This document shows, one piece after another, positions 29,361 through 31,751 of a DNA stretch of 64,000 bases. Below the pieces are notes generated by a model. It did no database searches. It saw only the letters and a list, made by a program, of their open reading frames with translations, and was not told where the DNA came from. The DNA comes from Pseudoflavonifractor sp. MSJ-37. Lineage in GTDB: Bacteria; Bacillota; Clostridia; Oscillospirales; Oscillospiraceae. The stretch is from assembly GCF_018917965.1 (NCBI RefSeq), contig NZ_JAHLPP010000001.1, forward strand, positions 992,001 to 1,056,000, given 5' to 3'. How positions within the stretch are numbered: position 1 is the first letter of the stretch; every line of letters begins with the position of its first letter. A program made the position numbers and the translations under genes.

Positions 29361-30200
29361 TCAGTTGGGGTGACCGCCGCCCCCCTCCCGGCAGCAGGGA
29401 CGGCCTCCGCCGTGGTCCGGCGGGAAGAACTCCTCCATGGGGAACTTGACCCGGCGGAAGAGCTCACAGGGATCTTCGTCCCCACAGGAGCCGCCGCAGG
29501 GGCATTCTTTCTCGGGCACACAGTAATCGTAGACCGGCATGAGGAGCTGGGTGTCCCGCTCCAGACGGATGATGGAGAACTGTCCCAGGGTCACATAGAT
29601 CCGCTTGCCCTGATCTCCAAAGCACAGGTCACAGCCGAAGCATCCGCAGATGCAGGGTGGGATCTCCGAGATGGCGCAGTCGCAGGGACGGCAGTCGCAC
29701 ACGTCCACCAGCTTCATGCTCAGGACGATGGGATCTACGGCCTCCACCACAGCGGTGGGGACATTGCTCTTCCGGATCTGGAGGTCCGGGCCCTCCTCCG
29801 CTACCTGAGAGGTGAACACCTTGGCTCCGCTGTCACTGCCGAAGAGGATGACCCGCTTGTCGAACACGCACAGTCCGCTGATCGGCACTGGCCGGACCGC
29901 CCCGATGAAGGCGTCCGCCGTGACTCGGTAGTAGTACCGCACGTCCACGGTGTAGAACCCCCGGTCGAAGCCGATGGGCTCCACATCGATGTACACATAG
30001 AGCAGCTCCGCCTTCCCGGCCTTGACACTGATGGCCCGGTCGATCGCGGCCTGAGAGTCCTGCGTGGGATAGAACCGCAGATCTTCGATGCAGTCCTTAT
30101 CTCGGCAAGAATCATACACCTTCCTAGTATCGAGGCAGACGGCCTCCCGGATGTCAGTTGGCCCTTGGAGCGGACCGGGGATGACTTTTTCAGGCATCAT
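29361..30200 (-). CDS. Cysteine-rich hypothetical protein
   Basis: A 279-residue protein I cannot assign to a characterised family. The N-terminal part (DTRKVYDSCRDKDCIEDLRFYPT, then a β-rich stretch YVYIDVEPIGFDRGFYTVDVRYYYRVTA) looks like a folded β-domain. The middle has the cluster VDVCDCRPCDCAISEIPPCICGCFGCDLCFGD, and the C-terminus has CPCGGSCGDEDPCELF and a Gly/Cys tail. About 20 cysteines suggest metal binding or disulfide cross-linking. Similar proteins occur as hypotheticals in Clostridia; a spore-surface role is only a guess. ATG ATG at 30200/30197 follows AGGAGG. Confidence 0.7.
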   Translation of the reverse strand: MMPEKVIPGPLQGPTDIREAVCLDTRKVYDSCRDKDCIEDLRFYPTQDSQAAIDRAISVKAGKAELLYVYIDVEPIGFDRGFYTVDVRYYYRVTADAFIGAVRPVPISGLCVFDKRVILFGSDSGAKVFTSQVAEEGPDLQIRKSNVPTAVVEAVDPIVLSMKLVDVCDCRPCDCAISEIPPCICGCFGCDLCFGDQGKRIYVTLGQFSIIRLERDTQLLMPVYDYCVPEKECPCGGSCGDEDPCELFRRVKFPMEEFFPPDHGGGRPCCREGGGGHPN

Positions 30201-30273
30201 GGTACCTCCTGACGCTTATTCGGATCGCTTCCACCCCATCTTATGGACCGGGGGCACGATCGGTGCGCCGGAG

Positions 30274-30312
30274 AAAAAAAGAACGGCGAGGTCCCGGGGC
30301 TCTCCCCCGTTC
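30274..30312 (-). terminator. Minus-strand terminator without an assigned gene
   Basis: On the minus strand a stem closed by GAACGG/CCGTTC (30307-30312 with 30281-30286) with inner pairing is followed by seven Ts (complement of 30274-30280). It lies about 90 bases after the terminator of the micro-ORF unit and before the Cys-rich gene. Confidence 0.65.
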
Positions 30313-30401
30313 CCTCACCGCTCAGTTTCGATACTGGCTGGGTCCTGTCTCCATGTCTCTCACCATTCTTTCTGCCGTTCCATGGCACATCCTTGATGCG
30401 C

Positions 30402-30441
30402 AAAAGAAAACCACACCACAGCTCCGCGCTGGATGGTGTGG
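30402..30441 (-). terminator. Terminator of the 26-codon micro-ORF
   Basis: On the minus strand CCACACCA pairs with TGGTGTGG (30434-30441 with 30411-30418), followed by TTTTCTTTT. Confidence 0.75.
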
Positions 30442-30464
30442 AACGAACCGCCTGTATCTTACGA

Positions 30465-30545
30465 TCAGCGCTCGCTGCGGATCACATCTCCGGACCCGAA
30501 GATCATGTCGTCCACGTCAGTCCCACGGTAAGTCTCATTCAGCAT
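30465..30545 (-). CDS. Micro-ORF encoding a 26-residue peptide
   Basis: ATG at 30545 is preceded by AGGAGG at 7 bases and reads 26 codons to TGA at 30465-30467. The peptide begins MLNETYRGTDVDDMIF and ends GSGDVIRSER; it is acidic in the middle and soluble, with no signal or membrane segment. It has its own TTGCGG-17-TATAAT promoter, a near-ideal ribosome site and a terminator, i.e. a complete one-gene transcription unit. Function is unknown. It could be a regulatory peptide or a small structural protein. Confidence 0.65.
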   Translation of the reverse strand: MLNETYRGTDVDDMIFGSGDVIRSER

Positions 30546-30577
30546 ATCTATCCCTCCTCTCCTTCAGAACTGCATTC

Positions 30578-30606
30578 ATTATAACGCATCTTCTGTAAAG
30601 CCGCAA
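30578..30606 (-). promoter_or_regulatory. Promoter of the micro-ORF
   Basis: Minus-strand TTGCGG (30601-30606) and TATAAT (30578-30583), 17-bp spacer, about 35 bases before the start codon. Confidence 0.8.
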
Positions 30607-30756
30607 GACCTTTTTCACGCCAAAACGTGAATGTTTTGTAAATATAACGTGTATTTTCTGTTATCTTCCGTGCGATATCCCATTTTTCGACGCTCGCAGC
30701 AAATGAATCGCCGCTCCGCTCATCCTGCATCGTCCGTCTCAGATCTTCGTCCGCAC

Positions 30757-30794: not shown

Positions 30795-31047
30795 ATGATG
30801 AGCGCGATGAACGGGAAAAGTAGCGTCCTGTCCGACCGGTCAGAGAGGGTCTGCCGCTTGGCTGAAAGCGGACCCGCGGCGGAAGATGTGAAGTGCGCCC
30901 GGGAGCGTGGGGCGCAATGGCTCCCGGCAGGCCGCCGTTACCGGCCGGATCGGTTGCTGGACCGATCATGAGCGAATACAAGAGTGGGACCGCGACGGAG
31001 ACGCCGCCTCTTGTGCCTTTGAGGGCATAAGGGGCGTTTTTTTGTCC
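30795..31047 (+). ncRNA. T-box riboswitch, probably cysteine-specific
   Basis: The leader contains the T-box hallmark AGAGTGGGACCGCG at 30981-30994, which pairs with the uncharged tRNA acceptor end. It also has the stem I elements CAGAGAGGGT (30841-30850) and CTTGGCTGAAAGCGG (30857-30871). It ends in a terminator hairpin with seven Ts at 31037-31043. In the expected specifier loop (GATGTGAAGTGCGCC) the triplet TGC at 30894-30896 fits a cysteine codon. Together with the genes downstream, this indicates antitermination of cysE-cysS when tRNA-Cys is uncharged. Confidence 0.9.
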
Positions 31048-31085: not shown

Positions 31086-31751
31086 ATGACACGTCTCGGC
31101 GAGACTCTCGCGGCCTATCAGGCCCGGGATCCGGCGGCCCGGAGCAAGCTGGAGATCTTCCTGCTCTACCCCGGCATCCACGCCACCCTCTACCATCGAT
31201 TGGCACATTTCCTATACTGCCACGACCTGAAGTTCCTGGCCCGGGCCGTCTCCCAGTGGAGCCGCTTCTGGACCGGCATCGAGATCCATCCCGGCGCCAA
31301 GATCGGCCGCCGCTTCGTCATGGACCACGGCATGGGCATCGTCATCGGCGAGACCGCCGAGGTGGGCGATGACTGTCTCCTCTACCACGGCGTCACCCTA
31401 GGCGGCACCGGCAAGGACCACGGCAAGCGCCACCCCACTCTGGGCAACAACGTGATGGTCTCCGCCGGCGCGAAGGTGCTTGGGCCCTTCAAGGTGGGCG
31501 ACAACGCCCGCATCGCCGCCAACGCGGTGGTGCTCAAAGAGATCCCCCCCGACGCCACCGCCGTTGGCGTCCCCGCTCGGGTGGTCCGTATCGCCGGGGA
31601 GAAGGTGGACTACGCTACCGATGTGGACCAGATCCATGTGACCGACCCGGTACAGAAGGAGCTCCAGGCACTCAGTTCCCGACTGGAGTTCGTCGAGATG
31701 CTGCTGGACGAGCAGCGCTCCGACCATGGTACCGACCACGATGATGAATGA
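31086..31751 (+). CDS. cysE: Serine O-acetyltransferase
   Basis: A 221-residue left-handed β-helix acetyltransferase that makes O-acetylserine, the precursor of cysteine. Catalytic His residues lie in VMDHGMGIVIGET and LYHGVTLGGTGKD; hexapeptide repeats follow (NNVMVSAGAKVLGPFKVGDNARIAANAVV). The start ATG follows TTGGAGGG. First gene of the T-box-controlled operon with cysS. Cysteine synthase is not in the window. Confidence 0.95.
   Translation: MTRLGETLAAYQARDPAARSKLEIFLLYPGIHATLYHRLAHFLYCHDLKFLARAVSQWSRFWTGIEIHPGAKIGRRFVMDHGMGIVIGETAEVGDDCLLYHGVTLGGTGKDHGKRHPTLGNNVMVSAGAKVLGPFKVGDNARIAANAVVLKEIPPDATAVGVPARVVRIAGEKVDYATDVDQIHVTDPVQKELQALSSRLEFVEMLLDEQRSDHGTDHDDE

Follow-up and report, generated by a model that had tools for sequence, protein, structure and literature searches.

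A 26-residue micropeptide gene of Pseudoflavonifractor sp. MSJ-37 belongs to a peptide family with two regulatory promoter classes

A stretch of 64,000 nucleotides (nt) from Pseudoflavonifractor sp. MSJ-37 (NZ_JAHLPP010000001.1, positions 992,001-1,056,000, assembly GCF_018917965.1), here called the window, carries on its minus strand a gene for a 26-residue peptide. This gene belongs to a family of the order with two regulatory promoter classes, of which the window copy represents the vegetative class. Its 26-codon open reading frame (ORF) is almost certainly a real protein-coding gene and, judged from the promoter sequence, is very likely under Pho-type control. We lean slightly toward an account in which the product would be an acidic micropeptide of the cytosol, produced when phosphate runs short and docking on a protein partner, with a paralogue for sporulation. 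None of the sources searched (NCBIfam, Pfam, PHROGs and the literature) contained the peptide family; stand-alone stress-regulated micropeptides are already known as a kind.

Conservation of the reading frame is evident among close relatives. The peptide was searched against 99 genomes, its own included, with a match taken at E<=10. Twenty-two genomes matched, comprising all 10 of the genus, 11 from other genera of the family and 1 from elsewhere in the order, and no internal stop codon was present in the matching frames of these 22. All 24 loci returned had a variable N-terminal part followed by the core D-[IV]-D-[DE]-[LMF]-I-[FY]-G, six to seven residues, and a C-terminal S-[ED]-R directly before the stop, with one locus ending SQR instead, and a ribosome-site-like stretch preceded the ORF in nearly all of them. 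Length variation from core to end amounted to one whole codon. Over their last 18 codons, the 10 genus orthologues diverged by 0.18 at the first codon position, 0.05 at the second and 0.50 at the third, the third-position value being tenfold the second, and the ratio of nonsynonymous to synonymous differences per site (pN/pS) was 0.23 (bootstrap 0.08-0.42); in the eight codons ahead of the core it was 0.76. An earlier note on this DNA had proposed a real but easily overlooked 26-residue peptide gene, to be checked by conservation of its frame. That check was run and passed, as close relatives keep the frame and change mainly at synonymous positions, which bears the proposal out.

The same note had described a complete minus-strand unit of promoter hexamers, AGGAGG, 26-codon ORF, hairpin and T-rich tail, and we confirmed every part at its position. 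The parts alone were insufficient as proof of a gene, because scans flagged neither promoter nor terminator and folding was not unusual, and it is conservation that supplies the proof. A simple promoter scan did not return this promoter, since TTGCGG has three of the six bases of TTGACA and the scan needs four; the terminator scan of the window did not list the hairpin at 30441-30411; and the 176-nt transcribed stretch folded no better than shuffles (z 0.17). The features of the unit and of the region upstream are as follows.

30659-30664, minus: Pho-box-like repeat 1 of 4, ATAACA (5 of 6 bases), from repeat scoring in an 11-nt register
30648-30653, minus: Pho-box-like repeat 2 of 4, TACACG (4 of 6 bases), from repeat scoring
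30637-30642, minus: Pho-box-like repeat 3 of 4, TTTACA (6 of 6 bases), from repeat scoring and the window pattern scan
30626-30631, minus: Pho-box-like repeat 4 of 4, TTCACG (5 of 6 bases), from repeat scoring and the window pattern scan
30601-30606, minus: TTGCGG, -35-like hexamer with a 17-nt spacer to TATAAT, read from sequence
30594-30599, minus: TTTACA, 10 nt 5' of the -10, like the genome's own pstS-like gene, from sequence and promoter comparison
30578-30583, minus: TATAAT, -10 element, from sequence and promoter class
30553-30558, minus: AGGAGG, Shine-Dalgarno sequence 7 nt ahead of the ATG, from sequence
30465-30545, minus: micropeptide gene, 26 codons plus TGA, ATG at 30545, peptide MLNETYRGTDVDDMIFGSGDVIRSER, from sequence and conservation
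30411-30441, minus: terminator hairpin 3' of the gene, CCACACC...GGTGTGG, its stem sequence conserved, from sequence and pattern searches
30402-30410, minus: T-rich tail of the terminator, from sequence

The promoter of the window copy resembles those of phosphate-regulated genes. Four repeats in an 11-nt register, ATAACA-N5-TACACG-N5-TTTACA-N5-TTCACG, extend from 30664 to 30626 on the minus strand, two of the four being strong. The best triplet at this locus (L002), ATAACA-N5-TACACG-N5-TTTACA, scored 15 of 18, a value reached by 0 of 200 shuffles. TTHACA-N5-TTHACR, a pattern written with the site known, occurred once in the 64-kb window (30626-30642, minus) against 0.01 expected. Genes resembling pstS were sought with TIGR02136 in 16 genomes and found in 14, and a TTNACA-N5-TTNACA pair matching at 11 or 12 of 12 bases lay upstream of the best match in 14 of 14. 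Three of these best matches scored just under the curated cut-off, including that of the window's own genome (200.3 bits, cut-off 206.6). The promoter cores of the peptide gene (TTTACAGAAGATGCGTTATAAT) and of the own pstS-like gene (L235, TTTACAGAGGATGCGGTATACT) differ at 3 of 22 bases. The PHO box is described in a passage of PMC4415409 as two 11-nt direct repeat units in which seven bases are well conserved. Based on this definition, the four repeats, the promoter-proximal TTTACA and the presence of the same operator at pstS-like genes, we read the window gene as Pho-regulated. The earlier note had given TTGCGG-17-TATAAT as the promoter. Both hexamers are present, but TTGCGG is probably secondary as a determinant, because the Pho-type repeats, and likewise a TTTACA placed 10 nt ahead of the -10, are found at the own pstS-like promoter too. 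All 14 pstS-like promoters share the Pho layout, each with a TTTACA-N5-TTTAC-like pair, and could be used for predicting the Pho regulon of the family. In 9 of the 14, a further TTTACA was seen by eye 9-10 nt ahead of a TATACT-like -10 (L222-L235).

For the family at large, 138 loci were picked by residue pattern, so invariance among these 138 peptides is partly built in; the 24 loci above came from a similarity search with the window peptide. Enough upstream sequence was available for 135, and 119 remained after near-identical ones were removed. Fifty-seven of the 119 upstream regions contained a suitably spaced CATANN[AC]T (shuffles 5.0) and make up the sigma-E-type class. TTGNNN-16/18-TAnnnT was present in 48 (shuffles 9.5), and the 43 of these without CATANN[AC]T make up the vegetative class, leaving 19 with neither pattern as unassigned. 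Locus L003 is counted as sigma-E-type throughout, its automatic assignment having been triggered by a chance CATANNAT, and is vegetative by eye. Because the classes are defined by the -10 or by the TTG...TAnnnT pattern, TTGNNN is common to the vegetative class by selection, and only the sigma-E-class -35 and the repeats are independent evidence. Regarding the repeats, a triplet score of at least 15 was found in 16/43 vegetative, 1/57 sigma-E-type and 0/19 unassigned promoters, and a shuffle p<=0.05 for the triplet in 21/43, 8/57 and 0/19, respectively.

The -35 of the other class also stands out. A block [GT][AC]AT emerged by itself in the CATA class, with 14 nt to CATA after a KMATATT-like stretch, and given CATA it was correctly placed in 41 of 57 regions (3.4 expected). 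A two-block pattern, combining a KMAT-type -35 and a CATA-type -10 at 13-15 nt, was present in 30/57 sigma-E-type regions (expected 0.35), 1/43 vegetative and 3/19 unassigned. It also occurred in 11 of the 20 upstream regions of spoIVA, which we take to be a known sigma-E gene, from 20 genomes of the family (0.18 expected), the pattern having been written after these sequences had been read. Many of the spoIVA upstream regions (L246-L265) share CTTATCCCCATA at the -10, a conservation beyond what the sigma-E consensus needs. In Clostridioides difficile, according to a passage of PMC3789822, the promoters of sigma-E and sigma-K have the -10 in common and are told apart by the -35 (ATA versus AC), and it is on this distinction that the CATA class was called sigma-E-type. 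A literature search for sigma-E consensus strings matched no paper.

Members with such promoters are found alongside the vegetative copy in the genus. The second member in the window's own genome, MPEHTPDSPAPAPMPAPREDVDDLIFSTETERPVSDR (L241 1450-1563), is preceded by GCATATC-13-CATAGACT, of the sigma-E type. Like paralogues, each with GCATANACTG ahead of it, were found in seven other genus genomes (G001 and G004 to G009), two of the seven matches being weak (E 0.03 and 0.07), and only one copy was found in G002 and G003. Most of the sigma-E-type paralogues of the genus end SQR. With the paralogue in the own genome and those in the seven others, a pair made up of one Pho-type copy and one of the sigma-E type is thus typical of the genus. 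Across the family, a member at E<=0.01 was carried by 120 of 219 complete genomes with SpoIVA versus 4 of 26 without (Fisher p 1.3e-4, with relatedness ignored and promoter classes pooled).

The favored account, of a phosphate-starvation micropeptide that docks on a protein partner, would then run as follows. Low phosphate would bring a PhoB/PhoP-type response regulator onto the TTTACA close to the promoter and the 11-bp repeats (30664-30626), inducing an mRNA of approximately 170 nt whose 3' end would lie in the terminator (30441-30402). The peptide would use its core, D-[IV]-D-[DE]-[LMF]-I-[FY]-G, together with its free C-terminal S-[ED]-R, to bind a single protein partner and modulate it, with the N-terminal third acting as a free tail. 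The sigma-E-type paralogue would provide a similar activity again in the mother cell during sporulation; such reuse is probable, because a second family gene with a sigma-E-type promoter is present in the same genome. The sequences directly show the parts of the unit, the constraint on coding, the motif statistics and the paralogue; we infer Pho and sigma-E control from promoter sequence, and cytosolic action and partner binding are likewise proposed.

Properties of the peptide are compatible with action inside the cell. It is acidic (median net charge -4 over the 138 loci), and no hydrophobic or transmembrane segment or signal was seen by eye, so the earlier view that it is no obvious toxin or bacteriocin holds. 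In members of 18-20 residues the core begins 1-3 residues past the start, leaving little beyond the core and the end. Codon use among the 138 loci also speaks for a coding sequence, the Ser codon being AGY in 120 and TCN in 18, and the Arg codon CGN in 73 and AGR in 65. A short conserved C-terminal half behind a variable N-terminal half is seen in some precursors, and the C-terminal part could in that case be the mature product of an exported signal or a modified peptide, either a quorum peptide or a ribosomally synthesized and post-translationally modified peptide (RiPP). We consider such a precursor unlikely and rejected it, given the charge, the absence of a signal by eye and the lack of room for a leader in the 18-20-residue members. 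In addition, the nearest two genes on each side of the peptide genes contained no recurring export or modification gene in clusters of at least 4, and no recurring transporter-protease-maturase set. As neither a signal nor a membrane segment was seen, nor a processing partner, the peptide most likely acts as an intracellular short linear motif. The small stand-alone gene with its strong ribosome site would also fit a membrane-acting toxin of a type I toxin-antitoxin system. This we regard as the least probable of all explanations and rejected, because the peptide is acidic and without a transmembrane segment by eye, the scan listed no opposite-strand promoter within the unit, and the 10 genus genomes have one vegetative copy each.

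The hairpin downstream of the gene points to a possible second function of the transcript. Of the 119 loci, 116 had 90 nt after the stop. CCACRC...GYGTGG was present within 90 nt past the stop in 25/40 vegetative, 1/57 sigma-E-type and 0/19 unassigned loci, with 0.02-0.04 expected per class, and the sole sigma-E-type locus was L003. The fifth stem pair covaried in all 26, being A-T in 10 and G-C in 16 and never mixed. CCACACC...GGTGTGG was found at one place in the own genome, where a reversed control pattern was also found once. Among 30 genomes, hand-chosen and in many cases because the stem had already been seen at their peptide gene, the stem plus T-tail gave 44 rows, or 40 distinct sites once sites counted on both strands were reduced to one, 19 of which were directly behind a peptide gene. 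The transcript could therefore be a dual-function RNA that encodes the peptide and, through its 3' hairpin, also works by base pairing or by binding protein. This is a tentative possibility, and one that we hold to be well short of probable, since a terminator needs a stem regardless, related loci could have inherited one, codon-level constraint on the ORF is clear and the transcript is no more stable than shuffles. Nevertheless, an RNA function may be a serious rival or addition to the peptide account. At a similarly doubtful level we place a combined proposal, in which one family would be a shared effector of phosphate starvation (the PhoB/PhoP copy) and mother-cell sporulation (the sigma-E copy), with the phosphate copy also a dual-function RNA bearing a regulatory CCACRC/GYGTGG hairpin.

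Several observations weigh against the account of a phosphate-starvation peptide with a sporulation paralogue. In terms of phosphate control, 27 of the 43 vegetative promoters were below the Pho triplet threshold, five additional weaker TIGR02136 matches were without repeats, and upstream of the pstS-like genes the triplet score was reached by 5% of shuffles or fewer in only 9 of 14. Another OmpR-family regulator is possible, because the TTTACA repeats, when reversed, resemble the TGTAAA boxes of WalR, an essential regulator. With respect to sporulation, no more than 4 of the 20 regions upstream of spoIVA contained the exact -10 pattern CATANN[AC]T, the two-block pattern was devised with those regions already in view, and 4 of the 26 complete genomes lacking SpoIVA keep a family peptide, at least 2 of them with a CATA-type -10. 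The last core residue in the sigma-E-type paralogues of the genus is S, H, Q, C or R and not G, and 117 of 400 family genomes had no match to the peptide profile even at a loose E<=1. Binding to a protein partner is pure inference. Furthermore, a terminator needs no fixed stem sequence, yet the stem is conserved, which suggests that the RNA may have a function of its own.

The peptide family has many carriers within a single order, most of whose members are gut bacteria. The profile of the peptides matched 283 of 400 family genomes at E<=1, and at E<=0.01 at least one member was carried by 124 of 245 complete family genomes, or about half; this count and that of 120 in 219 were taken by hand from the profile-search list. 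Members were 18-41 residues in length, and genomes often held two or more. In a sample of 295 genomes of the order, a refined profile had matches in 38 at E<=0.01. The own family accounted for 17 of these (out of 26 genomes) and other families for 21 (out of 269); in the latter the C-terminal end is often SDK or SEK. Five of 398 genomes matched in a phylum sample: the window's own genome, a second genome from the family, another from the order, and two with weak matches that are probably chance. A DNA pattern scan of named genomes identified at least 119 stretches, and most of the 80 titles listed belonged to Oscillospiraceae, Ruminococcaceae, Clostridiales or Clostridia; Papillibacter cinnamivorans, two Oscillibacter and one Ruminococcus were among them. 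The exact peptide pattern had no matches in viral contigs.

Database searches gave no established family. Seven peptides scanned against NCBIfam and Pfam had no model above cut-off, and the best Pfam match, PF21911 (13.4 bits, cut-off 23.6), was taken as chance. PHROGs gave no convincing match (23 of 24 members), with matches at E 0.18 and 0.35, one member each, also attributed to chance, as were PDB matches to designed TIM barrels in which only the DVDEM-like stretch aligned. Nothing in the whole window reached the gathering score of an Rfam model, and an sR28 match (18.4 bits, gathering score 39) was dismissed likewise. A search of 5.39 million papers for six core octapeptides found none that contained them. 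Small-protein catalogues exist and may hold family members.

Neighboring genes varied by lineage, with a MATE transporter, a P-type ATPase and others at vegetative loci, and each peptide gene has its own promoter between its neighbors. The commonest neighbor, a metallophosphoesterase-like gene, was directly upstream on the same strand at 29/57 sigma-E-type versus 1/43 vegetative loci, and prfB was often downstream of sigma-E-type loci (14/57, same strand). Neighbor names are from reading of the sequences, with only the MATE protein of the window checked against Pfam. In the window, a same-strand ORF of 279 residues (29361-30200, minus) begins 264 nt past the peptide stop codon; it is cysteine-rich and had no Pfam match at E<=0.01. 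Its position would allow the peptide to be a leader whose translation controls the downstream gene by attenuation. We judged this very unlikely and rejected it, because the unit has its own terminator, a second terminator-like hairpin was seen by eye in between, downstream genes vary between lineages, and no run of control codons was apparent by eye, residues being conserved instead.

Just downstream of the peptide's terminator is a 14-residue ORF, MVRDMETGPSQYRN (30322-30366, minus), followed by the second terminator-like hairpin (approximately 30270-30315, by eye and not listed by the terminator scan). One relative (L003) has a near-copy of this ORF, MVKDMDTEPGQYWK, at the corresponding position; L004 retains only a faint trace of it, and in the remaining seven genus loci none was seen. 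On the plus strand, a T-box leader (30798-31014, 69.2 bits, gathering score 93, E 9.3e-15) with a terminator at 31005-31036 precedes a serine acetyltransferase-like ORF (31086-31751) and then a cysteinyl-tRNA synthetase-like ORF. It is probably a cysteine T-box, the gene names and the specificity being read from the sequence.

Provided that the promoters have been read correctly, a single peptide motif connects phosphate starvation with endospore formation, in a host group whose sporulation and phosphate biology have been little studied. The motif is short and sharply defined, so that a partner protein should be findable by pull-down, and because the genus has a two-copy layout, one copy being Pho-type and the other sigma-E-type, each role is open to direct testing.

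The peptide can be compared with several known systems. Motif I of HAD phosphatases is DxDxT, often DIDDTLF, and DIDDLIFG is similar by eye; the Thr is absent and 26 residues cannot form an enzyme, and the likeness was taken as coincidence. SR1/SR1P and SgrS/SgrT are dual-function RNAs, and they share with the window gene a short mRNA, one tiny ORF and a terminator hairpin that is possibly functional. They differ in that the window has no Rfam match at gathering score and the RNA role here is a candidate one. SpoVM (26 residues) and CmpA are small proteins of the sigma-E regulon, similar in size and in the sigma-E-type promoters of the paralogues described here. Their sequences are unrelated, however, the window copy has a vegetative Pho-type promoter, and SpoVM is a basic amphipathic membrane peptide, whereas this family is acidic. 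We know of no micropeptide of this sequence among Pho members. Compared with promoters of the Pho regulon (PhoR-PhoB/PhoP), the repeats in the window match at only 5, 4, 6 and 5 of 6 bases and form a predicted operator, but the arrangement of 11-nt direct repeats upstream of the -10 is alike, and it is common to the pstS-like genes of the same genomes.
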